DNA from: a bacterium | Lineage (GTDB): Bacteria; SZUA-79; Acidulodesulfobacterales; Acidulodesulfobacteraceae | Assembly: GCA_021798875.1 (NCBI GenBank) | Contig: JAJZBN010000004.1 | Coordinates: 1-64,000 of the forward strand | DNA: 64,000 nt | Direction of reading: 5' to 3' | Shown here: positions 3,053 to 55,120 of the stretch, piece by piece | Position numbering within the stretch: position 1 is the stretch's first letter | Layout: each line of letters starts with the position of its first letter | Translations under genes and position numbers: made by a program | Notes under the pieces: generated by a model | Database searches by the model: none | Told to the model about the DNA's origin: nothing | What the model saw: only the letters and a program-made list of their open reading frames with translations

Positions 3053-3382
3053 ATGGACAAACGAAAACTTCACAAAAAGAAAAAGACTGTACTTAAGAAG
3101 AAAAAAATGAGCTATCAGGAATTCATCGATAAAATAAATTTAATTCATAAAGAAAGACGCGAAATGGAAAATTTTTTGAGAAGAGTATGGGTGTTTAACG
3201 CCGAAGACGTTCTCGAATATATGGAAATAAAGAAAAAAAACGAAAAGATTCTTGAAGAACACATAAGGCAAAAAGCATTGAGGGCATCGGGCGGAAATCC
3301 TGATAATCCTGAATTAAATACAAGTTTAAATGCTGAATCCGAATTAACGTCTTTGCAGAATATCGATAAAATGACCGAATGA
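3053..3382 (+). CDS. Small basic/coiled-coil protein, Pho-box controlled, unknown function
   Basis: 109 aa. The first 20 residues are very rich in lysine. A predicted helical middle (roughly 20-80, with charged heptad-like spacing) follows, then an acidic Asn/Ser/Glu tail. There is no signal peptide and no family I recognise. The start is supported by the run AAAGGGGGTAATTATT before the ATG. The gene sits alone behind the longest 11-bp repeat array of the window, which suggests induction under phosphate limitation. Function unknown. Confidence 0.7.
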   Translation: MDKRKLHKKKKTVLKKKKMSYQEFIDKINLIHKERREMENFLRRVWVFNAEDVLEYMEIKKKNEKILEEHIRQKALRASGGNPDNPELNTSLNAESELTSLQNIDKMTE

Positions 3383-3504: not shown

Positions 3505-6120
3505 TTATTTCGCAAAATTTTCCGCTGGTTTTCCCGTATAATAACCCTGGGCGTAATCGACTTTAAGCTCCTTAAGTTCGTTCAGAACCTCCTCTGATTC
3601 GATAAATTCTGCTATAGTCTTTATGCCCATTTCTTTTGCGATAGAAATAGAACTGACGACGACCGCCCTGTCCATCTTGTCTTCAAAGATGCCCATTATA
3701 AATTCGCCGTCTATCTTGAGAAAATCTATGGGGAATCTTTTAAGATACATAAAAGAACTGAAACCGGAACCGAAATCGTCCACGGCAAACCTAAATCCTT
3801 CGTATTTAAGATTTGCGACGAACTTTTCGAGAAGCGAAATATTTTTGACGGTTTCTCTTTCCGTAAGCTCGAAAACTATTTTGGAAGTATCTATGCGGTA
3901 CTTTAAAGACAACTGTTTCACGGTCTTAACGTAATCCGCCACTATCAAAGATTTAGGAGAAAGATTGATGAACATATCCAAAGAATAATTTTCGTCTTTA
4001 ATTTTCTTAAAGGCTTTCTCGAGAAGTATCAAATCCAACTTATGCGCTATCCCTATGCTTTCGGCTATCTCTATAAATTCTCCCGCGGATATTATTTTTG
4101 AAGTTTCAGGCTCGTTGCCGTCCGCAGATATCGATTCTAATTTTATCCTCATAAGCAGTTCGTGGGCGGCGGGTTTTCCGGTTTTAATATCTACTATAGG
4201 CTGAAAATAGGGCAATATTATATCTTTTTCCAAAGCGTCCATAACCATTTTGCTTTTTTCGGAAACTTCTTTAAAGGCGGCTACCGCGTCTTCCTCTTTG
4301 GCAATATATACGGTATCTTTTCCGGCTTTTTTTGCCTTATACATCATATTATCCGCCAATAAAAAGAGGTCTTTGTCGTCGCAAGCGGAATTGGGATAAA
4401 TCGATATTCCTATGGAAACGGTAGCGCCGACGGACTTTCCCGTCATAGGGTCTTTAAGCGTAAAAGTTTTTATATTTTCCCTTATTTTATTTGCTATCAT
4501 ATAAGACTGTTCTTCTCCCGCGCCTGGAAGAATCATTACGAATTCGTCTCCGCCGTACCTTGCGGCTATATCTTCGTTTCTTTTATCTTTTTCCAATATA
4601 TCGGCAATGCCCTTAAGGAATTTATCCCCGAAGTTGTGTCCGTACATATCGTTTATAAGTTTAAAATTGTCGAAGTCGATAAATATTACGCCGAAGGTGG
4701 AATTATGCCTTTTTGCCCTTTCTACTTCGTAGTGCAAAAACTCCATAAATACGCGCTGGTTATAAAGATTGGTCAACCCGTCCCTCGTTGCGTAATATTC
4801 CAGGTCTTTAGTATATTTATATATTGCTTTGATAGAGCCTATTACGTTTAAAAGGGTCGTAAGAACGCTGTTTATGACGAGGCCCTTAACTCCTTCGACT
4901 TCGTCTTCCGACTGCACGCCTATTCCAACTATACCGCCTATATGGGGAGCTTCGAGAATTATCTTTTTAGTCTGGACCATCAGATCTTCTTTTTTAAGTT
5001 CAGGCAGTTTAACGTTTTTATCGGATACGTTGTGGAATATTTCGTGCTTCCCCATTCCCTGAACTATAAAAGCGCTTAGTCCGTTGTGATATATGTTTTG
5101 GTAAATAAGTTCGTCGAATATTTTCTTTGTTTTATCGGTTGGTTCTCCTTTCCAGAACACTTCTATTTCAACGGAACTTTCATCCTCCATGAATATGGAA
5201 AAAACGTTATAAACCTTAATAATCTTATTCATTTCGTTAAGCATGTTGAAAACATGCTCTTTCCAGTCTTTAACGACTTCGGAGGTAATAATAAAACGCT
5301 CTAATAATTTAATTTCAAATTCCAAGACGTCTTTATCTACGGCTATATCCCTTAATCTTTCCGAAAGTCCGCTTACGCCTTGATATATCCGGTTAAACTC
5401 TTCGAATTTTAAATCGACCAACTTGGTATCCAAGGTCTTAAGGTCTTTTACGCTCTTAATATTTTCTACGGCGACGTTTATGCTTTTCATTCCGTTTTTT
5501 ATGGAACGCCTTAAGATTAGCGTGACGAAGATGCCTCCCGCTATGGGAAGTATAAAGATAAGAAATATAATAAGTATAAAATAACCTTCAAGTTTGTTTC
5601 TCAAAAACGACGGGTTGAAAGATACCTCTACGACTCCGTTTACGTCGCCTGGTTTTGCCATGGTATGACATTTTAAGCACAGGCTTTTGTCTTTTAAAGG
5701 ATAGGCATATACGATATTCCCGTTTACGGTAGCGTGAAACGGGCGTTTAGTTTCGAATACTTTTTTTACTATAAAATTTTCTTTGCCCTGAGGAATTTTT
5801 CCAAACTGTTTGTCGACTATGGCTCCTCTAAATATCGAAGTCTTTACCGTATTTTCATTTTTAGAGGATTTCTTTAGCGCTTTCATAAAAGTCATAACCT
5901 GCTTTTCGTTCCACCCTTTTTTCATAATCTGAAACATAGTATTGAAAGTTTGTCTGGAAATATATTCGGCCGTCGTGTCGCTTTCGTATTTAATTATTTT
6001 GTTTCCAAAATTAGACAAAAGATAGGCTGATATTCCGGCTACTATTATGCTTACAGAAACGGCTATGCACAGTATGAATTTATCTAATCTTCTAAAAAAC
6101 TTCGGTAATTTGATTTGCAT
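3505..6120 (-). CDS. Membrane GGDEF-EAL protein with periplasmic heme-c sensor domain
   Basis: 871 aa. TM1 is about residues 14-36 and TM2 about 178-204. The periplasmic segment between them carries a c-type heme motif CLKCH at 148-152, as in DUF3365/Tll0287-like sensors. A GAF-like cytoplasmic linker follows, then GGDEF (RYGGDEF, about 521-527) and EAL (about 650-865). The EAL signature is ELL (HELLMR). The other phosphodiesterase residues appear present: NLSPKS, ELTERE, DDFGSG, LKIDGEF, AEFIE, QGYYTG. It probably makes and/or degrades c-di-GMP in response to redox state or a heme ligand. The protein at 38898-41186 is a paralog without the heme domain. Confidence 0.92.
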   Translation of the reverse strand: MQIKLPKFFRRLDKFILCIAVSVSIIVAGISAYLLSNFGNKIIKYESDTTAEYISRQTFNTMFQIMKKGWNEKQVMTFMKALKKSSKNENTVKTSIFRGAIVDKQFGKIPQGKENFIVKKVFETKRPFHATVNGNIVYAYPLKDKSLCLKCHTMAKPGDVNGVVEVSFNPSFLRNKLEGYFILIIFLIFILPIAGGIFVTLILRRSIKNGMKSINVAVENIKSVKDLKTLDTKLVDLKFEEFNRIYQGVSGLSERLRDIAVDKDVLEFEIKLLERFIITSEVVKDWKEHVFNMLNEMNKIIKVYNVFSIFMEDESSVEIEVFWKGEPTDKTKKIFDELIYQNIYHNGLSAFIVQGMGKHEIFHNVSDKNVKLPELKKEDLMVQTKKIILEAPHIGGIVGIGVQSEDEVEGVKGLVINSVLTTLLNVIGSIKAIYKYTKDLEYYATRDGLTNLYNQRVFMEFLHYEVERAKRHNSTFGVIFIDFDNFKLINDMYGHNFGDKFLKGIADILEKDKRNEDIAARYGGDEFVMILPGAGEEQSYMIANKIRENIKTFTLKDPMTGKSVGATVSIGISIYPNSACDDKDLFLLADNMMYKAKKAGKDTVYIAKEEDAVAAFKEVSEKSKMVMDALEKDIILPYFQPIVDIKTGKPAAHELLMRIKLESISADGNEPETSKIISAGEFIEIAESIGIAHKLDLILLEKAFKKIKDENYSLDMFINLSPKSLIVADYVKTVKQLSLKYRIDTSKIVFELTERETVKNISLLEKFVANLKYEGFRFAVDDFGSGFSSFMYLKRFPIDFLKIDGEFIMGIFEDKMDRAVVVSSISIAKEMGIKTIAEFIESEEVLNELKELKVDYAQGYYTGKPAENFAK

Positions 6121-6152
6121 AAAAAATATTATTTTAAGATGTTAATTATATT

Positions 6153-6180
6153 AATTATTATCATAATAATGATAATAATT
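6153..6180. repeat. Perfect 12-bp inverted repeat upstream of the heme-c GGDEF-EAL gene
   Basis: The arms AATTATTATCAT and ATGATAATAATT are separated by 4 bp. They lie 33 bp before the start at 6120 and just after the exonuclease gene stop. GATAAT/ATTATC hexamers are those of Fur boxes, but here they diverge, whereas the classical box has them converging. The repeat could be an operator or a weak AT-rich terminator. Confidence 0.4.
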
Positions 6181-6203
6181 ATATAAACTATAAACGGCTG
6201 TTA

Positions 6204-35625: not shown

Positions 35626-37077
35626 TTAAGCTTTATGAGGCTCAGCTGAAGTCGGCACTGATAATTTGTCTTCTTCAATATATTTATCTTCTTGTCCAAC
35701 TTCCCTTAAAGACATCTCTTTAGGTTCAGGTAAAGCAACGACAGTGAGTATAGCTCCTAAAATCGCAATTACCGCAAGTATTAAGAATGTTCCTTGAACT
35801 TTTAAAGCCGCCATTAAGAACGGAAACAGCAGCGTGCCGAGGAATGCGCCTATTTTTCCGCTTCCTGCCGAAATACCGTCGCCCAATCCCCTTATAGGCG
35901 TTGGAAACACTTCAGCCGGATAAACGAAAGTCGTTACGTTTGGTCCAAATTCCGTGAATATGTAACTCATACCGAATACCAACATAAACACGGCTGGAAT
36001 AAGTTCATATCCGCCGAAACTCGTAAAAGAAATGATAAGATAAGCTACCGCCATACCTATAAACCCGACGGTTTGTATAAATTTCCTTCCTAATTTATCC
36101 ATGCTGAATGCCGCTATCCAGTAAAACGGTGCTGCAAAAACTACAAAAACTATGGTCGATAAAGCAAGACCTTGAATAAAACTTCCGTGAGGCATAATAG
36201 ATTTCATGACGAGCGGCCAGCTTATAGAATTTCCGTAAAAAGCCCAGTCTAACAAGAACCATGAACCCGCCGTTCCGAGAAGCCTTAAATTATTCGGATA
36301 GGTAAATATATCCGTCCATTTTGTTTTTAATTTGACGCCGTTTCCGTTTTCGGATTTTTTTGGTTCGGCGGCTGTTATTTTAGAACCGGTTATATCGTTA
36401 ATAGCGGCAACCGTTCCCGAAACATCTCCTTTTGCGTCAAGACTGAAGTATGGAGTCTCTTTAATCTTTCTTCTTAAGTATATTACGCTTGCGGCAGGTA
36501 TAGCGCCTAAGCCGAGCAATATTCTCCACGCCATATCGTGTGGAACTCCAAGCATTATAATAAGTATAGCCACCATAGGACCGACTACCAATCCTATTCC
36601 TTGAAGCGAAAACACCATGGAGACCAATTTTCCTCTGTCCTTTCTGTTTGAATATTCGCTCATTATTATTGCGCTTATCGGATAGTCTCCGCCGATTCCG
36701 ATACCCAAAACTATTCTCCATATTATAAGCTGGGTGATATCCTGCGAAAAAGCCGAACCTATTGCGCCTATCGTTAAAATTAAAACTTCCAAACCGTAAA
36801 TTGCTTTTCTGCCGAAAATATCCGATACTCTTCCAAAAATATATGCTCCAAGCGCCGCCGCAATTAAAGACGAACTGCCCAAAAGCGCAATTTCCGGCGT
36901 AGTTAAGTGCCATATCGGCGTTAGCAGGGCAATAACGACGCCAATAATGAAAAGGTCGTAAGCATCCGTAAAAAAACCCATCCCTGCCGTAAACATCGTC
37001 CTGAAGTGATGCCTTACAAGGTCGATGTCGTCAACCTTATCGAGCAGGTTGTTTCTTAAATCTTTCGCAGAATCCAT
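35626..37077 (-). CDS. MFS transporter of the phosphate:H+ symporter (PHS) type
   Basis: 483 aa, 12 TM segments. FTAGMGFFTDAYDLFIIGVV (TM1), GRVSDIFGRKAIYG (motif A), GIGIGGDYPISAIIMSEYSN (TM4) and PTPIRGLGDGISAGSGKIGA are hallmarks of the Pho84/PHS branch of sugar-porter-like MFS. Two Pho-box-like arrays lie in its upstream region and a secreted phospholipase/phosphatase gene precedes it, so inorganic phosphate uptake fits well. The exact substrate remains inferred. Confidence 0.85.
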   Translation of the reverse strand: MDSAKDLRNNLLDKVDDIDLVRHHFRTMFTAGMGFFTDAYDLFIIGVVIALLTPIWHLTTPEIALLGSSSLIAAALGAYIFGRVSDIFGRKAIYGLEVLILTIGAIGSAFSQDITQLIIWRIVLGIGIGGDYPISAIIMSEYSNRKDRGKLVSMVFSLQGIGLVVGPMVAILIIMLGVPHDMAWRILLGLGAIPAASVIYLRRKIKETPYFSLDAKGDVSGTVAAINDITGSKITAAEPKKSENGNGVKLKTKWTDIFTYPNNLRLLGTAGSWFLLDWAFYGNSISWPLVMKSIMPHGSFIQGLALSTIVFVVFAAPFYWIAAFSMDKLGRKFIQTVGFIGMAVAYLIISFTSFGGYELIPAVFMLVFGMSYIFTEFGPNVTTFVYPAEVFPTPIRGLGDGISAGSGKIGAFLGTLLFPFLMAALKVQGTFLILAVIAILGAILTVVALPEPKEMSLREVGQEDKYIEEDKLSVPTSAEPHKA

Positions 37078-37119: not shown

Positions 37120-37188
37120 TTTATATTTAGTAAATTTTATCAAACTAATGTTACAACTTTGTGACGTTTATGTTAAATTTTTGTAACA
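37120..37188 (-). promoter_or_regulatory. Pho-box-like array B before the PHS transporter
   Basis: On the minus strand TGTTACA, TTTAACA, CGTCACA, TGTAACA and TTTGATA lie exactly 11 bp apart (37182, 37171, 37160, 37149, 37138 on the plus scale). A -10 TATAAA (37120-37125) follows 12 bp later, and the gene starts at 37077. Confidence 0.75.
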
Positions 37189-37270: not shown

Positions 37271-37307
37271 GTTGGGGGAGATAAGATGTTAAACTCAGCT
37301 TACAGTA

Positions 37308-37382
37308 TTATAAAAATGTTAACATATTAATGAATTTTAATGCGTTAAGATTGCGTTAAATTTACGTTACGATTTTGTAACA
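37308..37382 (-). promoter_or_regulatory. Pho-box-like array C
   Basis: Minus-strand units TGTTACA, CGTAACG, TTTAACG and CTTAACG at 37376, 37365, 37354 and 37343 (11-bp steps), with a TATAAT at 37308-37313. It starts 3 bp after the phospholipase stop, 230 bp upstream of the transporter start, and is separate from array B. Confidence 0.65.
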
Positions 37383-37384
37383 AT

Positions 37385-38566
37385 TTAAATAATAAACACA
37401 TCGTCGAAAGCGTTCGCATACCTGTCCCTGTCGGTTAAAGGTTCGATTCCCCAAAGATTTTCGACGTATCTAAGAACGGAGGCGTGTTCGTGCCTTATAT
37501 TGGAAACGTAACCTTTTTTGGCGAACGGCGAAATAATAATGCATCCTACCCTCATTCCAAGACCGTAATAATCGACCACCGGCGGCACGACATGATCGTA
37601 AAAACCCCCGCATTCGTCCCAGTTTAAAAAAATAACGGATTTTGAAAATAAAGGGCTTTTCCTCAAAGCTTCTATCCTTTTTACCGTATATAACATTCCG
37701 GTTTTAACGTTTGCCGGCGGATGTTCCGAATGCGCAAAGTCCGGTACGAGCCAGCTGAACTGCGGCAGAGTTCCCTTTTTTACATCTTCAAAATATTCTT
37801 CGGCGGGTCTTATTTTATTCCATAAGTTTTTATCTCTTTTGAAACTTTCAAACCATATCACTGGCACCCAGTGATGAACGTATTTATGCGGGTTAGGCCA
37901 GCCTTGAACGTATATTTTCCAAGAGATTTTAGCTTTTTCGAGCCTATTAAAAATCGTAGGAAATTCATAAGGTTTTCTCGGCGGTGCATCGGTTATATGC
38001 CCGTTCGACTGACCGGCAATCTGATATAGCCTGTTAGGCTGGGTAGGAGCCATTATAGAATGAAAATAGTTCTGGCAGAGCGTATAATTTGACGCATAGT
38101 AATAATAAGGCGAAAGCGCTTTTTTCGTGTCGTAGTAGCCCATAATAACCCTGTAATCGTTGACCGGCTGATTAATGCCGTTTAAGAAATAACCGTCCAT
38201 TTTGCCGTTATTATATATAGTATGGAGCGCTTCCCATGAATGATTAGGATCGACATGATTCGGCGTTACGTAACTAAAACCCAAATCGTAAGGTTTAACG
38301 CTTCCGCCCATTCCGTCTGTTATCCCAAGTTCTTTTATCCTTTTAGGCTGTCCGTTAACGGTTTCGTCCATCATTCCAAAATAGTGGTCGAAACTTCTAT
38401 TTTCCTGCATTATTAAGACTACGTGCTCCGGTTTTTTATATTTGTTTAAGGCGGCGCTTGAAGCATTATCAGCGGCGGCGGCCGCACTTTTCAAGTTAAT
38501 GCCGTTTACAAATAATCCGGATAAAAGGGTTAATCCAGTCATTTTTACAAAATCTCTTCTGTTCAT
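37385..38566 (-). CDS. Tat-exported phospholipase C/acid phosphatase family protein
   Basis: 393 aa, PF04185 phosphoesterase family. A Tat signal ([19 protein letters not shown]) is followed by the catalytic start [29 protein letters not shown], a central [15 protein letters not shown], and [17 protein letters not shown] with metal ligands. It would release phosphate from phospholipids or other phosphoesters outside the inner membrane. It stands between Pho-box arrays and the phosphate transporter, a textbook phosphate-scavenging context. Confidence 0.9.
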
Positions 38567-38806
38567 TAATCAGCCTCCTTAAAAATTAATGTCAAATTAA
38601 AGTTTATTTGCATCCTTATATTCGATTGGGAAAATTTGGAGATGAAGACTTTAATTAAAATTTTAGATATAAATCAAATAAAGCTTACCCCATTTTTTAA
38701 AACGATTAACGCATAAAATTTGAAAAAGTTTTTAATGCTTAATTTAAATTTCATAATAGTCTCCTATTTTTAATATTAATTATAATTTTTACAAAAATTA
38801 TTTATT

Positions 38807-38865
38807 ATTATATAAAGCAAATGTTGTAGTGTAGTTTTATGACTTTACGTTAAATTTATGTCATA
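38807..38865 (-). promoter_or_regulatory. Pho-box-like array D before the phospholipase gene
   Basis: Minus-strand units TATGACA (38859-38865), TTTAACG (38848-38854) and AGTCATA (38838-38844), spaced 11 and 10 bp, with a TATAAT at 38807-38812. It is shorter and less regular than the other arrays. The rest of 38567-38897 holds no gene I can see, which leaves a long untranslated leader (about 235 nt). Confidence 0.55.
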
Positions 38866-38897
38866 AATCAAAAAATAAAATAAATAAAACTATTTTC

Positions 38898-41186
38898 TTA
38901 TTGACATTGCAATAAAGTGCCGGAGGGTCGGCCGGTGTAAAATCCCTGAGCAAAATCTACTCCTAACTCTTTTATTGCATTCATAATTTCTTCCGTTTCG
39001 ACATATTCGGCTATAGTCTTAATATTTAGCTCTTTTGCTATCGTAACGAGGCTCATAACGACTGCTCTGTCCATTTTTCCGCCCTTCACCAAACCTCTGG
39101 AGAATTCACCGTCTATTTTAATAAAATCTACCGGTAAATATTTTAAATACATAAACGAATTATAACCGGAACCAAAATCGTCTATAGCAAATTTGAATCC
39201 TTCGAACCTTAGATTTAAAACAAATTTTTCGAGAAGAGATATATTTTTAACGGTATCCCTTTCGGTTATTTCAAAGACGACATTTTGCGGGTTGATACCG
39301 TATTTTAATGCGTAACTTTTAATTAAATTTACATAATCGGAAATTATTACCGATTTTGGCGATATGTTTATAAAAATAGTTCCGCCGTACTTTTCATCAC
39401 TCATTTTTTTGAAAGCTTTTTCTATAAGCATTAAGTCCATATTGTAAGCGACTCCTATATTTTCGGCAATTTCTATAAATTCTCCTGCCGTAATTATTTT
39501 TCCGTCTATACTTATTCTCATAAGAAGTTCGTTAAAACATATACCGTCTTGCGCTAATTTTTCATTTAATGGTACAATAGGTTGAAAGTATGGTATTATA
39601 AGGTTGTTTTGATTAGCATTAATAACTATATTCTTTTTTTCGTTAATTTTTTGCAAAATTTGTTTAAAATCGTTTTCTTGAAAAATATGGACGGCATTCT
39701 TACCGGACATTTTTGCCTGATACATCATGTTATCCCCAAGTACAAACAGATCGTCTTCATTGGAAGCTGCGTTAGGGAAACCTGCTATCCCTATTGAAGC
39801 GGTAATATGCACTTTATCTCCGGCAGCAGAATCCGATAAAGTAAATGAATTTATTTTTTGCCTGATCCTTTCCATGATTTTATAAGTTTCTTCTTCATTT
39901 GCATCCTGAATAATCATAACATATTCATCGCCGCCGTATCTTGCAAGAATATCTTCTCCTCTTTTATTTTGCGATAAAATTTCAGCAACGCCTTGTAAAA
40001 TCTTATCCCCCATTTTATGCCCGTAATTGTCGTTAATAGATTTAAAATTGTCTAAATCTATAAGAACAAATGTAAAAATGCCGTTATTTCTTTTTGCCTT
40101 ATGTACGGCGTTGCTTAAAAATTCCCTGAAAACTCTTTGATTATATAATTTTGTAAGTCCGTCCCGCGTTGCGTAAAATTCAAGATCTTTAGTATATTTA
40201 TATATAGCTTTTGCGGAACCTATGATGTTTATCAGCGACGTCAGTACGGCGTTAATAACTAACTTCTTTGCAGAATCCCTGCCGCCAGACTGGATGCCTA
40301 TACCTACTATTCCGTTAACCTCCGGAGCATTAAGCATAATTTTCTTGGTCTGAAGCGATAAGCCGCCGCGCCCATCCCCGCCGTCGTTAAGGTTATAAGA
40401 CAGACCAAAATCTCCGGTATCTATGATTTTTACAGAACCTCCTTCTGAAGCGGTAATACCCCATTCGCAGACTGAAGCCTCGTGCGTAATAACTATTTGC
40501 TCGAGATTCTGCGCATATTCTTTAAATTCTGCATCATTTTCGATTATCCTTTTTTTTATTAGCATATTGAACGTTTCTTTTGCCTCTTCGGACGGCGGGT
40601 CGTTCCAGAAAACATTAATTTCAAGAACGGATTCATTAACGAAAACCGTAAATATGTTATATACGTTTATCGCTTTATTGAACTCCCTCAAAATGTAAAA
40701 AACACTGCTTTTCCAGTTTAAAACAAGGTCAGACGTGATAATAAATTTTTCAAGCAGATTTATTTCAAATTCGAAAATATTTTTATCGACCGTCATTTCC
40801 TGTATTTTAGACAATAATTTTTCTACGCCGTAATGCAGGTCGCTTACTTCCTGATTATAATATTTTTTGGAGATTATGTTGTTTTTAATTTCTTTTATAT
40901 TATTTATTGAGGTTATTTCGTCTATTATCGAAAAAACATCTTCTATATCGTCTTTAATAGAACGGGAAATTAGGATCGATAATAATAAACCTGTAAAAAA
41001 TGGAATAATTAAAATGAACAGCGCATAAATATAATTATTAACTTTTATCCCTCTGCTGTTCATATAAAACAAGATTGCGCTAAAAATTCCGGAAAAAATT
41101 AAACCGTAAGTAACCGCCCTAAAAATTAAATACTTGCAAGACGGTAATTTATCTAATAATTTTAGTTTGCTCTTAATTAATTGCAT
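38898..41186 (-). CDS. Membrane GGDEF-EAL protein (paralog without heme domain)
   Basis: 762 aa. Two adjacent N-terminal TM segments (about 20-70) have almost no periplasmic loop, unlike the paralog at 3505-6120. A GAF-like linker (about 130-340) is followed by GGDEF (RYGGDEY, about 416-422) and EAL with an ELL signature (NELLMR, about 552), NISPKS, EITERD, DDFGSG, IKIDGEF, AEYVE and QGFYTG. Both domains appear catalytically competent apart from the Y and L substitutions. Last gene of an operon behind Pho array E: leader ORF, 68-aa Cys protein, then this gene (20 bp). Confidence 0.9.
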   Translation of the reverse strand: MQLIKSKLKLLDKLPSCKYLIFRAVTYGLIFSGIFSAILFYMNSRGIKVNNYIYALFILIIPFFTGLLLSILISRSIKDDIEDVFSIIDEITSINNIKEIKNNIISKKYYNQEVSDLHYGVEKLLSKIQEMTVDKNIFEFEINLLEKFIITSDLVLNWKSSVFYILREFNKAINVYNIFTVFVNESVLEINVFWNDPPSEEAKETFNMLIKKRIIENDAEFKEYAQNLEQIVITHEASVCEWGITASEGGSVKIIDTGDFGLSYNLNDGGDGRGGLSLQTKKIMLNAPEVNGIVGIGIQSGGRDSAKKLVINAVLTSLINIIGSAKAIYKYTKDLEFYATRDGLTKLYNQRVFREFLSNAVHKAKRNNGIFTFVLIDLDNFKSINDNYGHKMGDKILQGVAEILSQNKRGEDILARYGGDEYVMIIQDANEEETYKIMERIRQKINSFTLSDSAAGDKVHITASIGIAGFPNAASNEDDLFVLGDNMMYQAKMSGKNAVHIFQENDFKQILQKINEKKNIVINANQNNLIIPYFQPIVPLNEKLAQDGICFNELLMRISIDGKIITAGEFIEIAENIGVAYNMDLMLIEKAFKKMSDEKYGGTIFINISPKSVIISDYVNLIKSYALKYGINPQNVVFEITERDTVKNISLLEKFVLNLRFEGFKFAIDDFGSGYNSFMYLKYLPVDFIKIDGEFSRGLVKGGKMDRAVVMSLVTIAKELNIKTIAEYVETEEIMNAIKELGVDFAQGFYTGRPSGTLLQCQ

Positions 41187-41206
41187 ATATAAAAATTGAA
41201 GAGAGC

Positions 41207-41413
41207 TTAAACAAAATTAAAATTAATTTTGATGATTTCTCCGCATACAGGACATTTTTTGGCAAATCTGTCGTAAACTCTACCTATGTCTTCCTCAGTA
41301 ACGAGAACATCGAAATTATTTTCGTTGCATCCGCATTTTACATTCATCACGCAGCGTTTTGAAGGAGAGGATTTTATCTGTTTTTTAATAATATTTAAAA
41401 ATCTTGACCTCAT
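41207..41413 (-). CDS. Small Cys-rich (zinc-ribbon-like) protein
   Basis: 68 aa with a basic N-terminus and two cysteine groups (KCGCNENN and KKCPVCGEI), plus an isolated Cys in KRCVMN. They could bind zinc. The start ATG overlaps the TAA of an upstream 19-codon ORF (TAATG), so translation is probably coupled. It ends 20 bp before the GGDEF-EAL gene. No known family assigned. Confidence 0.6.
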   Translation of the reverse strand: MRSRFLNIIKKQIKSSPSKRCVMNVKCGCNENNFDVLVTEEDIGRVYDRFAKKCPVCGEIIKINFNFV

Positions 41414-41472
41414 TAAAACGGCGTTTTGGCTTGCGGTTTTAAAATGTTATTAAAAAACTCTTCGTTTTCCAT
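41413..41472 (-). CDS. 19-codon leader ORF coupled to the 68-aa gene
   Basis: Reads MENEEFFNNILKPQAKTPF then TAA. A strong Shine-Dalgarno (GGAGGAATAA) sits 5 bp before the ATG, better than that of the following gene, and its stop overlaps that gene's start. It lies in the Pho array E transcript. It may be a coupling leader or a small acidic protein. Confidence 0.5.
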   Translation of the reverse strand: MENEEFFNNILKPQAKTPF

Positions 41473-41548
41473 TTATTCCTCCATTATTTTTATTATTTTA
41501 TTATTTGATTATGGATTGAATATTTTGGATATCGCAAGGAATTAAACC

Positions 41549-41612
41549 AATATAAACATTTTATCAAACTAATATTACGTTTTTATTACGTTTAAGTTAA
41601 ATTTTTGTAATA
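41549..41612 (-). promoter_or_regulatory. Pho-box-like array E before the c-di-GMP operon
   Basis: Minus-strand units TATTACA, TTTAACT, CGTAATA, CGTAATA and TTTGATA at 41606, 41595, 41584, 41573 and 41562, all 11 bp apart, followed by TATATT at 41549-41554. The array ends like array B. I see no gene in the remaining 41615-41831. Confidence 0.72.
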
Positions 41613-41831
41613 TTTAAAAAATAAATTTCTAAAATTATTTTTTATAAAAGTAAAATTAATTAGGTTAATTATGGACGGATGCCTTGCATCAAACCTGCTT
41701 CGCGATTCAAGGAAGAATATTTTTTTCTTGATATGATAAGAGGTAAGTCTAAAACAAACCTTTTGTTTTCTGTATTGTAATATTATAAAAAGTTATATTG
41801 CTGAGGATATAAGGTTATGGAATTATATTGG

Positions 41832-42245
41832 TTAAATATTTACTATATTCAACCAGTCAATCCTTGAGAAATGTTTTTTATCGAGGGTTAATATATCGGT
41901 TAAACTATATTCTTTCATAAAGAACGCATTGTAAGCATCCACGAAATCGATATTTTTGTATAGATAAAAATTAAGCGCGTCTAAAATTAGACCTGAATCT
42001 TTCACTTCAAGCCCTTTAGTATTCATAATCTTTAAAATAGCTTCTTCTATTTCTTTTTTTGATTTATCGTAGTATGACTCTAAAACAAATATAATTTCTA
42101 CAATTACTAACGAATTTGTAACCAATAAAATCTTTCCTGAAGAGGCCTTTTTAAATATTTCTTCGATTTTATCGGAGATAGATTTATTGTCGTTTATGAG
42201 ATATCTTAGAAAAATATTGGTATCGACAAAAATCTTTTTATTCAT
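41832..42245 (-). CDS. PIN-domain (VapC-like) toxin
   Basis: 137 aa. The PIN RNase acidic residues are visible in IFVDTNIFLRYL (Asp), the central IVEIIFVLES (Glu), FVDAYNAFF (Asp) and LTLDKKHFSRID. Partner of the AbrB-type antitoxin, whose end it overlaps by 8 bp. A 28-bp piece of this gene (42111-42138) recurs at 56158-56185. Confidence 0.88.
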   Translation of the reverse strand: MNKKIFVDTNIFLRYLINDNKSISDKIEEIFKKASSGKILLVTNSLVIVEIIFVLESYYDKSKKEIEEAILKIMNTKGLEVKDSGLILDALNFYLYKNIDFVDAYNAFFMKEYSLTDILTLDKKHFSRIDWLNIVNI

Positions 42246-42501
42246 TATTTAACGACTCATCGATAATTTTTTTTGCGGCTGATTTTCTTGCAATATTTCT
42301 AATCTTTTCGAAATCTTCGGTTTCTTTTCTCTGTTTTAAGCTGCCCCTGAGATCAAAAATATCTCCACTTATATGTTTTACGATTATATCGCCGTCTTTT
42401 TTAATGAACATTACCTTATCATGCTCTTTAATTCCTAAAATATTTCTTATCTCTTTAGGTATAGTAACCTGACCTTTCTTCGTTAAAGTGCTTATCGACA
42501 T
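42238..42501 (-). CDS. AbrB/SpoVT-family antitoxin
   Basis: 87 aa. The swapped-hairpin DNA-binding domain is obvious: STLTKKGQVTIPKEIRNILG, then DKVMFIKKDGDIIV. The C-terminal tail would wrap the PIN toxin. First gene of the TA pair. Confidence 0.88.
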   Translation of the reverse strand: MSISTLTKKGQVTIPKEIRNILGIKEHDKVMFIKKDGDIIVKHISGDIFDLRGSLKQRKETEDFEKIRNIARKSAAKKIIDESLNNE

Positions 42502-42701
42502 CCAACGCCTCCAAATATTAAAATTCCTACTTTTTTATTTTAGCATTACTTTTATTAAAAAGCAATAAAAAGTCTTAATCCGCATTAGAAATTTTATTTT
42601 CTGGATTACCGCTTAGTAGAGATTTTGGTATTGACAGTATGATTTTAAACGCATATAATGATTGCATATATAGTTGCTGATAAAAGGGAGATATAAATAA
42701 T

Positions 42702-42935
42702 ATGCGTACCACGTTAAATATACCCGATGATTTAATTATCGAAGTTCAAAAAGCTTCCGGAGAAAAATCTAAAACCAAAGCTATCGTTAAAACTATGAAA
42801 GAATATATAAAACAAAAAAAAATAATGGAACTTCTCGCTTTAAAAGGTAAGGTCGATATCGATTACGACTGGGAGAAAGAAGAAAAATTAGAAATAAATT
42901 CCCAATGCGATAGGGGAAAATTTATTGAAAAATAA
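42702..42935 (+). CDS. vapB: VapB-type antitoxin (copy 1)
   Basis: 77 aa. The N-terminal RTTLNIPDDLIIEVQK is a ribbon-helix-helix VapB start, followed by KTKAIVKTMKEYI and an acidic tail that binds the toxin. RBS AAGGGAGAT. Overlaps the toxin gene by 11 bp. A perfect copy lies at 53608 and a nonsense-mutated third copy at 58560. Confidence 0.9.
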   Translation: MRTTLNIPDDLIIEVQKASGEKSKTKAIVKTMKEYIKQKKIMELLALKGKVDIDYDWEKEEKLEINSQCDRGKFIEK

Positions 42936-43326
42936 ACATAAGCGCGTTTTGGCCGACACAAGCGTTTGGATTGAATTTTTTAGAGGGAATTCTTTAATAG
43001 GCAATAATCTTGAAATGCTTATTATTACAGATTCCGTTGAAATTTGCGGCGTTGTTTTATTCGAGCTGTTGCAGGGGATTAAATCCGATTCCGAAAAATT
43101 AAAGATTAACGATATTTTATCGAATTTACCGTACGTAGAAGTAAATAAAATTATATGGCAAAGATCTGCCGAAATTGCTTTTAATATAAAAAAGAAAGGC
43201 TTTGCCGTCCCATTTTCCGATATTTTGATAGCAGTTTTAGCAATAGAAAACAACCTTTCCGTTTTTACCTTAGATAAACATTTTGAATTAATTTCCGAAT
43301 TGGAACTTTATAAAATTCAAAAATAA
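42925..43326 (+). CDS. vapC: VapC-type PIN toxin (copy 1)
   Basis: 133 aa, TTG start inside the antitoxin end. PIN acidic residues in LADTSVWIEFF (Asp), LFELLQG (Glu), VPFSDILIA (Asp) and FTLDKHF (Asp) look intact, so an active RNase is expected. Identical copy at 53831. Confidence 0.9.
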   Translation: MKNKHKRVLADTSVWIEFFRGNSLIGNNLEMLIITDSVEICGVVLFELLQGIKSDSEKLKINDILSNLPYVEVNKIIWQRSAEIAFNIKKKGFAVPFSDILIAVLAIENNLSVFTLDKHFELISELELYKIQK

Positions 43327-43338
43327 AAAAATTTATTC

Positions 43339-43410
43339 GTTTACGTAATATTTATTTTAAATTAACATTAATGAAATATAATTATTTCATGAATAATTTA
43401 GGAATTATTC
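43339..43410 (+). promoter_or_regulatory. Conserved palindromic promoter block (copy 1)
   Basis: GTTTACGTAATATTTATT is followed by AT-rich sequence and the palindrome ATGAAATA-TAAT-TATTTCAT (43371-43390), then a second inverted repeat GAATAATT-TAGG-AATTATTC (43391-43410). The block recurs at 54245, 55285 and 58710. It precedes a Spy-like gene here and two-component genes elsewhere, so it may be their common operator. Confidence 0.6.
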
Positions 43411-43458
43411 ATTTAATTTAATTTTATTTAACTTTTGATTTAAAAGGAGAGATTTAAA

Positions 43459-44007
43459 ATGAAAAAGTCAAAGTTTTTTTTCCTATTTATGTTTTTGTTG
43501 GCATTTGTTTTTACGGGAACGTATTTTGCGGGAAAAGCTTTTGCATTTCAAGGCATGCAAAAAAACAAATTTATGGGGCATAAATTTATGCGCCGCGGTA
43601 AAATGAATATGTGGATGAAAATCGGAATGTTTAATGTTTTTATGCTCAAAAAGAAATTGCATTTAAATAAAAATCAGTTTCATCAAATTATGCTGTTTAA
43701 GCGCCAGGAATTTAAAGCTTTTAAGTCTAATATGGGAAACTTTAGAAATCCGCTGCTTGCGGCAATGAAATCCGGTACGTTTAACAAAAGCGTTTTCGTA
43801 TCGAGTATCACGAATAAAGTTAAAAATATGGCAGAAATTAAAGCAAACTTTTTTCAAAAATTCTTTAACGTTTTAACGCCGAAACAGAGAAACGAATTTG
43901 TAAAAATTATGAAGAATAGAATTGCCGGTAAAATTAAACGCCTTGAGTTTATGAAAAAAATGTTGAACAAAAAAATTAAAGCAATGAAAGAAAATATGTC
44001 CGAATAA
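43459..44007 (+). CDS. Spy/CpxP-like (LTxxQ) periplasmic protein (copy 1)
   Basis: 182 aa. Signal peptide FFFLFMFLLAFVFTGTYFAG with cleavage near KAFAF. A Met/Lys-rich mature protein is mostly helical, with LHLNKNQFHQIM and LTPKQRNEFVKIM as the paired LTxxQ-type motifs of Spy/CpxP chaperones. RBS AAAGGAGAG. Such proteins are usually under envelope-stress two-component control. Identical copy at 54365. Confidence 0.8.
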   Translation: MKKSKFFFLFMFLLAFVFTGTYFAGKAFAFQGMQKNKFMGHKFMRRGKMNMWMKIGMFNVFMLKKKLHLNKNQFHQIMLFKRQEFKAFKSNMGNFRNPLLAAMKSGTFNKSVFVSSITNKVKNMAEIKANFFQKFFNVLTPKQRNEFVKIMKNRIAGKIKRLEFMKKMLNKKIKAMKENMSE

Positions 44008-44232
44008 TATATCTTTATCTAATATCGATTAGTATTATCGGTATTAATCGTATGAGGAATGGCTAATTTTAAATTTTGTTTAGCGGCTGCGTTATTTGTG
44101 TTATCATATTAATTTAATGCGGCCGCTTCCAGTCATTGCGGTCAAATCTTAGAATGCGCTAATATAAATCACTAAATATAAACCAACGGCTTTTATGCTT
44201 TCGAAGATGCGGAGCAATAATAGATATATGCA

Positions 44233-47174: not shown

Positions 47175-47238
47175 ACTATAATAATGTTAGCATACAAATG
47201 TTACAACTTTATGACATTTACGTTAAATTTTTGAAATA
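47175..47238 (-). promoter_or_regulatory. Pho-box-like array F before the Phd/PIN genes
   Basis: Minus-strand units TATTTCA, TTTAACG, TGTCATA, TGTAACA and weaker TATGCTA at 47232, 47221, 47210, 47199 and 47188 (11-bp steps). TGTCATA is the E. coli Pho-box core. A -10 TATAGT is at 47175-47180. It lies just past the end of ppk. Confidence 0.72.
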
Positions 47239-53378: not shown

Positions 53379-53433
53379 ATTATACATTTTAATTATTACG
53401 GTTTTATTACATTTATGTTAAATTTTTGTAACA
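53379..53433 (-). promoter_or_regulatory. Pho-box-like array G before the CHAD-ppx-ppx-ppk operon
   Basis: Minus-strand units TGTTACA, TTTAACA, TGTAATA and CGTAATA at 53427, 53416, 53405 and 53394, all 11 bp apart. TGTATAAT, with the -10 hexamer at 53379-53384, follows about 9 bp later. This places polyphosphate metabolism under the same predicted control as array B. Confidence 0.75.
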
Positions 53434-53607
53434 TAATATATTATTTTAGTTATTATCTAACTTATAAATTTTCCGCTTGATTAAAAAATATTACGGCAAA
53501 ATTTTGACTTAGGTCAAAAAAGTAGAGATTTTGGTATTGACAGTATGATTTTAAACGCATATAATGATTGCATATATAGTTGCTGATAAAAGGGAGATAT
53601 AAATAAT

Positions 53608-53841
53608 ATGCGTACCACGTTAAATATACCCGATGATTTAATTATCGAAGTTCAAAAAGCTTCCGGAGAAAAATCTAAAACCAAAGCTATCGTTAAAACT
53701 ATGAAAGAATATATAAAACAAAAAAAAATAATGGAACTTCTCGCTTTAAAAGGTAAGGTCGATATCGATTACGACTGGGAGAAAGAAGAAAAATTAGAAA
53801 TAAATTCCCAATGCGATAGGGGAAAATTTATTGAAAAATAA
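53608..53841 (+). CDS. vapB: VapB-type antitoxin (copy 2)
   Basis: 77 aa, identical to the product of 42702-42935. The overlap with the toxin and the RBS are the same. Cross-neutralisation between the two loci is expected because the proteins are identical. Confidence 0.9.
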   Translation: MRTTLNIPDDLIIEVQKASGEKSKTKAIVKTMKEYIKQKKIMELLALKGKVDIDYDWEKEEKLEINSQCDRGKFIEK

Positions 53842-54232
53842 ACATAAGCGCGTTTTGGCCGACACAAGCGTTTGGATTGAATTTTTTAGAGGGAATTCTT
53901 TAATAGGCAATAATCTTGAAATGCTTATTATTACAGATTCCGTTGAAATTTGCGGCGTTGTTTTATTCGAGCTGTTGCAGGGGATTAAATCCGATTCCGA
54001 AAAATTAAAGATTAACGATATTTTATCGAATTTACCGTACGTAGAAGTAAATAAAATTATATGGCAAAGATCTGCCGAAATTGCTTTTAATATAAAAAAG
54101 AAAGGCTTTGCCGTCCCATTTTCCGATATTTTGATAGCAGTTTTAGCAATAGAAAACAACCTTTCCGTTTTTACCTTAGATAAACATTTTGAATTAATTT
54201 CCGAATTGGAACTTTATAAAATTCAAAAATAA
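53831..54232 (+). CDS. vapC: VapC-type PIN toxin (copy 2)
   Basis: 133 aa, identical to the product of 42925-43326, TTG start. PIN residues intact. Confidence 0.9.
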   Translation: MKNKHKRVLADTSVWIEFFRGNSLIGNNLEMLIITDSVEICGVVLFELLQGIKSDSEKLKINDILSNLPYVEVNKIIWQRSAEIAFNIKKKGFAVPFSDILIAVLAIENNLSVFTLDKHFELISELELYKIQK

Positions 54233-54244
54233 AAAAATTTATTC

Positions 54245-54316
54245 GTTTACGTAATATTTATTTTAAATTAACATTAATGAAATATAATTATTTCATGAAT
54301 AATTTAGGAATTATTC
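54245..54316 (+). promoter_or_regulatory. Conserved palindromic promoter block (copy 2)
   Basis: Same block as 43339-43410, inside the exact duplication. The palindromes lie at 54277-54296 and 54297-54316. Precedes the second Spy-like gene. Confidence 0.6.
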
Positions 54317-54364
54317 ATTTAATTTAATTTTATTTAACTTTTGATTTAAAAGGAGAGATTTAAA

Positions 54365-54913
54365 ATGAAAAAGTCAAAGTTTTTTTTCCTATTTATGTTT
54401 TTGTTGGCATTTGTTTTTACGGGAACGTATTTTGCGGGAAAAGCTTTTGCATTTCAAGGCATGCAAAAAAACAAATTTATGGGGCATAAATTTATGCGCC
54501 GCGGTAAAATGAATATGTGGATGAAAATCGGAATGTTTAATGTTTTTATGCTCAAAAAGAAATTGCATTTAAATAAAAATCAGTTTCATCAAATTATGCT
54601 GTTTAAGCGCCAGGAATTTAAAGCTTTTAAGTCTAATATGGGAAACTTTAGAAATCCGCTGCTTGCGGCAATGAAATCCGGTACGTTTAACAAAAGCGTT
54701 TTCGTATCGAGTATCACGAATAAAGTTAAAAATATGGCAGAAATTAAAGCAAACTTTTTTCAAAAATTCTTTAACGTTTTAACGCCGAAACAGAGAAACG
54801 AATTTGTAAAAATTATGAAGAATAGAATTGCCGGTAAAATTAAACGCCTTGAGTTTATGAAAAAAATGTTGAACAAAAAAATTAAAGCAATGAAAGAAAA
54901 TATGTCCGAATAA
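54365..54913 (+). CDS. Spy/CpxP-like periplasmic protein (copy 2)
   Basis: 182 aa, identical to 43459-44007. It lies about 0.5 kb upstream of an OmpR-family regulator, matching the usual link of Spy/CpxP proteins with an envelope-stress system. Confidence 0.8.
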   Translation: MKKSKFFFLFMFLLAFVFTGTYFAGKAFAFQGMQKNKFMGHKFMRRGKMNMWMKIGMFNVFMLKKKLHLNKNQFHQIMLFKRQEFKAFKSNMGNFRNPLLAAMKSGTFNKSVFVSSITNKVKNMAEIKANFFQKFFNVLTPKQRNEFVKIMKNRIAGKIKRLEFMKKMLNKKIKAMKENMSE

Positions 54914-55120
54914 TATATCTTTATCTAATATCGATTAGTATTATCGGTATTAATCGTATGAGGAATGGCTAATTTTAAATTTTGTTAAGCGGCTGCGTTA
55001 TTTGCTATATGTTATCATATTAATGCGGCCGCTTCCGGTCATTGCGGGCAAATCTTAGAATACGCTAATATAAATCACTAATATAAACCAAGGGCTTTTA
55101 TGCTTTCGAAGATGCGAGCT

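Follow-up and report, generated by a model that had tools for sequence, protein, structure and literature searches.

Does phosphate scarcity govern a c-di-GMP enzyme in this bacterium, and if so, by what route? The question is raised by a locus in a 64,000-nt stretch of DNA (contig JAJZBN010000004.1, positions 1-64,000; hereafter the window) from an uncultured member of the Acidulodesulfobacterales (GTDB SZUA-79) that inhabits acid mines. The original prediction placed a phosphate-type promoter, through which phosphate stress may set the c-di-GMP level, in front of three reading frames: a 19-codon leader that could be a coupling or attenuation device, a 68-aa Cys-rich protein that might sense a metal or redox state for the enzyme, and a GGDEF-EAL membrane protein. 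A second MAG, TL1-5.bin112 (G001), carries a near-identical version of the locus on contig JAJZYC010000037.1 (L087): in 7,639 bp of alignment with the window there are 4 substitutions and 1 indel. The coverage of this contig is low (1.68).

The promoter region and the related arrays in the window are as follows.

41571-41612, minus strand: Pho-box array of 11-bp direct repeats, TATTACAAAAATTTAACTTAAACGTAATAAAAACGTAATATT (PWM score, own-genome pattern search, 35 sibling arrays).
41558-41563, minus strand: -10-like hexamer TAAAAT, at a spacing common to the sibling arrays, consensus ..ttt.aTA.aAT (sequence, sibling arrays).
37147-37188, minus strand: sibling Pho array upstream of a phosphate:H+ symporter-like MFS gene at 35626-37077 (matrix, neighbours).
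53392-53433, minus strand: sibling Pho array upstream of the CHAD-Ppx-Ppx-PPK genes at 53270-47254 (matrix, neighbours).
47197-47238, minus strand: Pho array directly 3' of ppk, leading in the window to a PIN toxin pair (matrix, neighbours).

The matrix used to score the focal array was derived without it, from six further arrays in this genome. The focal array reaches 43.8 bits, and the maximum obtained by chance in 60 simulated 64-kb windows, read on both strands, is 19.8 bits. A genome-wide census by pattern search, in which up to 3 mismatches were allowed, returned 15 matches, compared with 1 for the reversed control pattern. The 35 arrays of the family show an autocorrelation peak at lag 11 and carry a TA.aAT hexamer downstream at a near-constant distance. 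PHO boxes are defined by 11-nt direct repeats (PMC4415409). The focal array comprises two or more direct repeats of 11 nt that share a conserved core, and its siblings lie before genes of phosphate uptake or metabolism. We take the array at 41612-41571 to be a putative Pho box because its siblings precede pstS (L008 of the same genome; TIGR00975, 268 bits), the phosphate:H+ symporter-like gene and the CHAD-Ppx-Ppx-PPK genes. The E. coli-type pho box pattern, CTGTCATN4CTGTCAT, gave matches no better than the control and was set aside; generic promoter and terminator scans stayed at chance level, and an Rfam search of 38500-42600 returned no RNA family.

Further arrays were observed. A strong Pho array (40 bits) at 2917-2969 on the plus strand precedes a lysine-rich 109-aa ORF to which no function was assigned (3053-3382, plus strand), flanked by a hemB-like gene and the haem-type GGDEF-EAL gene. 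A second array type, TTTAACGCAATCTTAACGCA ... ATACTGTAAGC followed by a hairpin, is present at 37285-37382 on the minus strand of the window, at L092 1565 and at L116 12250. It recurs upstream of phosphate genes and is found directly before the GGDEF-EAL gene in G006 and G009.

Two GGDEF-EAL genes of the window bear on the question.

38898-41186, minus strand: GGDEF-EAL membrane protein of 762 aa, with GGDEF at residues 339-497 (RxxD I-site, GGDEY) and EAL at 524-754 (full catalytic set) (Pfam, RbdA alignment, orthologs).
3505-6120, minus strand: haem-type (CxxCH) GGDEF-EAL paralog lacking a Pho array (alignment, array scan).

The first of these, referred to here as the enzyme, begins 20 nt after the 68-aa ORF with no visible Shine-Dalgarno, and consists of two membrane stretches (identified by eye) followed by the GGDEF and EAL domains. 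The EAL domain matches Pfam with 171 bits; aligned with RbdA (5xgb), the closest solved relative (E 1.5e-70), it retains the full set of metal-binding and catalytic residues (E, N, E, DD, K, E, Q), which are also kept in the orthologs. The GGDEF motif reads GGDEY in the window and G001 and GGDEF in the other orthologs, and the I-site is RGED. Judged by dN/dS between intact copies (0.15-0.18 overall, 0.08-0.09 for GGDEF and 0.12-0.16 for EAL), the enzyme is under purifying selection. In its N-terminal half no Pfam sensor domain was recognised, and a structural model of that region (mean pLDDT 45) was set aside.

The N-terminal half matches two groups of proteins, the pho-type orthologs (G001, G006, G009, G013 and G015) and a haem-type group with CxxCH. 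The window holds both types, the haem-type paralog being 49% identical to the pho-type enzyme, which has no haem domain. The haem-type group also occurs outside the genus and the pho-type is genus-specific; from this narrower distribution we infer that, of the two copies, the pho-type is derived. Several relatives have the enzyme gene in truncated or fragmentary form, namely G013 (internal deletion), G009, G004 and G011, the G004 piece being seen only up to the region edge. These broken or reduced copies argue that the gene is not indispensable, so that some relatives can do without it, unless their copies are in part assembly faults. With 23 GGDEF matches in the genome, the enzyme is one among many. 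At L088 6300-7083, the G013 gene has lost its central part, and its end is fused with that of the phosphoesterase gene. Upstream of the haem-type gene of the window, at 6121-6203, we also observe a palindrome, TATTATCATTATTATGATAATA, resembling a Fur-type operator.

Between the array and the enzyme lie the two short reading frames.

41478-41482, minus strand: Shine-Dalgarno GGAGG of an 88-aa gene, five bases 5' of the ATG (sequence).
41413-41472, minus strand: the "19-codon leader", N-terminal part of the split 88-aa gene, which we call Cys4 (L087 comparison, relatives, codon-position bias).
41437-41440, minus strand: run of four As, five in the G001 contig; site of a one-base deletion (L087 alignment).
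41207-41413, minus strand: 68-aa ORF, C-terminal part of the Cys4 protein, with CxC...CxxC invariant in the aligned family (family alignment).

As read, the 19-codon ORF is present with GGAGG upstream, and its TAATG overlap with the 68-aa ORF (41415-41411) is as originally described. It is not a gene of its own. The extra A of L087 fuses the 19-codon and 68-codon ORFs into one 88-codon gene, MENEEFFNNILKTASQNAVLMRSRF..., and the fused frame runs uninterrupted through all intact relatives. The run at 41440-41437 is the sole indel in the 7,639 bp shared by the window and L087. In codons 12-20 of the fused frame, base changes among the seven genomes compared number 6, 17 and 56 at codon positions 1, 2 and 3, and this third-position excess indicates that the fused frame is the coding frame, not that of the leader. 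The TAATG overlap exists because one A is missing. An independent, conserved short ORF upstream of regulated genes, as expected of a leader peptide or attenuator, is not what we find. These comparisons indicate that the 88-codon gene is ancestral and that it appears as 19 and 68 codons in the window assembly through one missing A. The G001 version with five As is the ancestral one despite the low coverage of its contig; in the window, the A may have been lost through an assembly error or through mutation in the strain. What was proposed as a coupling or attenuation device is the start of a single protein whose gene is broken by the loss of one base, which cautions that one base missing from a metagenome assembly can mimic a regulatory leader. 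The false leader peptide is removed, and a real, phosphate-linked and unnamed family of small proteins takes its place.

The Cys4 family, whose invariant alignment columns include C47, C49, C74 and C77, occurs in 19 of 30 genomes searched within the phylum, and 31 genomes from outside it gave marginal matches only. When paralogs are included, Cys4 genes nearly always have a Pho array upstream; those without one are fragments and the G007 copy, which lies directly 3' of a phosphoesterase gene. The neighbours vary, the usual ones being a phosphate symporter-like gene and a PHP gene. No significant match was found in Pfam (searched per member, all below threshold), in NCBIfam or in PDB sequences (searched by profile). 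The predicted structure is moderate (mean pLDDT 72), and a fold search with it yielded nothing better than E 0.25. The similarity to PCYCGC (PF13798) is weak, confined to the surroundings of the CxC and below the cut-off (E about 0.05); at 14 bits against a gathering threshold of 25, Cys4 does not belong to that family and has no named one. Less likely than not, and put forward tentatively, is the idea that these microproteins of about 88 residues (CxC...CxxC) are phylum-specific, Pho-controlled and a novel adaptor of the phosphate-starvation response, tuning the phosphate transporter, the polyphosphate enzymes or the neighbouring c-di-GMP enzyme. It is this family that most deserves a second look.

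To assess how closely array and enzyme are linked, we compared the pho-type and haem-type loci across relatives. A Pho array precedes every one of the 6 pho-type genes and not one of the 13 haem-type paralogs. Orthologous GGDEF-EAL genes without the array, named in the original prediction as the outcome that would count against it, were not encountered. A Pho box upstream of the transcription unit, the feature that marks a RapA-like case, is present in each of the six. What lies between array and enzyme takes three forms. The order array-Cys4-enzyme, whose conservation had been named as a check, is not conserved: it is confined to the window, G001 and G013, the last of which has a broken enzyme gene. 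G015 has ppk, array and enzyme with an apparent scrap of the Cys4 gene, and G006 and G009 have an array, a Cys4 paralog, a second array and then the enzyme. The slot after ppk, at 47197-47238 in the window, has an array leading to Cys4-GGDEF-EAL in G013 and to GGDEF-EAL in G015. The three arrangements indicate that the association with the promoter is kept and the small gene in between is not. The claim of a phosphate-type promoter before a c-di-GMP enzyme thus appears sound, as the set of arrays marks phosphate genes and an array is kept in all six loci.

We also note a 1.6-kb stretch, coding for a PIN toxin pair together with a secreted protein of 182 aa, that occurs twice in the window, at 42615-44215 and 53521-55119. 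The two copies are 99% identical, and around this stretch the phosphate island seems to have undergone rearrangement at its flanks. At 38754-38674 on the minus strand, upstream of the phosphoesterase gene, is a 26-codon ORF (MKFKLSIKNFFKFYALIVLKNGVSFI) that has an AGGAG site; among the relatives it is conserved in no more than two, G001 and G013.

The same comparisons allow other readings of the locus to be weighed. That the 19-codon ORF is a real leader coupling or attenuating the downstream genes, or that programmed -1 frameshifting joins it to the 68-aa ORF, is scarcely credible: the strong GGAGG, the TAATG overlap and an in-frame heptamer, T TTA AAA, exactly at the break would suit such a device, but the split hangs on the one missing A, relatives have an unbroken frame, it is that fused frame which is conserved, and the leader region has no Rfam match. 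The heptamer was rejected as a programmed frameshift site, being absent from G013 and G015. It is also conceivable that the array serves the Cys4 gene alone and that the GGDEF-EAL gene, transcribed from a separate promoter, lies next to it by chance. Cys4 does have its own array in nearly all genomes, mostly in those without a pho-type GGDEF-EAL gene, and the missing Shine-Dalgarno of the enzyme gene fits as well. This reading is nevertheless quite improbable, as the gap between Cys4 and the enzyme is short and has no terminator-like site, the array in G015 stands directly before the enzyme with at most the Cys4 scrap between them, a further array directly precedes the enzyme in G006 and G009, and the haem-type paralogs have none.

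The small protein itself might be a metal or redox sensor dedicated to the enzyme, as originally proposed. Its four invariant cysteines and its position, adjoining the enzyme gene in the window, G001 and G013 and represented by a paralog beside it in G006 and G009, speak for such a role. We consider it very unlikely, however, since in most genomes of the phylum Cys4 has its own Pho boxes, usually beside a phosphate transporter and with the pho-type enzyme absent, and since it exists as paralogs and has no recognisable fold. There is more to be said for the enzyme being a net diguanylate cyclase under Pho control, which would raise c-di-GMP and favour attachment under phosphate starvation: its GGDEF domain appears intact, with the RxxD I-site, and has the lowest dN/dS of the three regions. 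We nonetheless regard this as unlikely, because the EAL catalytic residues are intact as well, the closest solved relative is a dispersal phosphodiesterase, the window and G001 have GGDEY instead of GGDEF, and RapA, the best-studied Pho-controlled c-di-GMP enzyme, breaks the signal down (PMC3032545).

Our preferred reading, which we consider likely from the sequence comparisons, is that the locus belongs to an island of phosphate-starvation genes, in which a PhoB-type regulator on the array drives a joint transcript of Cys4 and the GGDEF-EAL gene, with c-di-GMP breakdown as the likeliest outcome. When phosphate is scarce, the regulator would bind the array at 41612-41571, and the small Cys4 gene and the GGDEF-EAL gene 20 nt further on would be co-transcribed. 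The phosphate input would come through transcription and not through a protein sensor, because the enzyme lacks the haem domain and has, in its place, a Pho array before its gene. The complete EAL active site and the RbdA-type closest solved relative make breakdown of c-di-GMP, and with it release from biofilm under phosphate starvation, the likeliest net effect, although this direction is a guess. Acid-mine water, sediment and biofilm are the habitats recorded for this order (PMC6776010), which makes starvation-driven release plausible.

A PhoB-like regulator is encoded on another contig (C121, positions 192776-193477), with a match of 246.8 bits that lies below the curated PhoB cut-off of 296.2. 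The window's own regulator and kinase (55440 and 58806) were rejected as PhoBR, the kinase being of ArsS type and the regulator a weaker PhoB match than that of C121. At L079 1483-3419 (minus strand), the PhoB-like regulator gene lies 32 bp downstream of a gene whose product, by eye, resembles a globin-type sensor bearing an HD-GYP domain, another possible link between phosphate control and c-di-GMP.

The pairing of array and enzyme is real, though in principle nothing out of the ordinary. Through it a distant uncultured phylum joins the few bacteria with apparent transcriptional phosphate control of a c-di-GMP enzyme, and within the paralog pair it is the copy without a haem sensor domain that stands under the phosphate promoter. 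The enzyme resembles RbdA of Pseudomonas aeruginosa (PA0861, PDB 5xgb) in its GGDEF-EAL pair and intact EAL catalytic residues, but it has no recognised Pfam N-terminal sensor domain, and the likeness makes no claim of PhoB control for RbdA. In Vibrio cholerae, PhoB has been reported as a possible regulator of the c-di-GMP enzyme genes acgAB (PMC12351708), a different gene pair in a different setting. The closest parallel is Pseudomonas fluorescens Pf0-1, where Pi starvation acts through PhoB on the RapA phosphodiesterase, lowering c-di-GMP and causing biofilm loss (PMC3032545). By analogy, phosphate starvation would induce the present enzyme and probably lower c-di-GMP. Both systems have a Pho box upstream of a c-di-GMP enzyme gene, through which low phosphate would act on transcription; the likeness is one of working principle only. 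Here, in contrast, the controlled protein is a GGDEF-EAL membrane protein, encoded behind a Cys4 gene in a phosphate and polyphosphate island of a distant acidophile.
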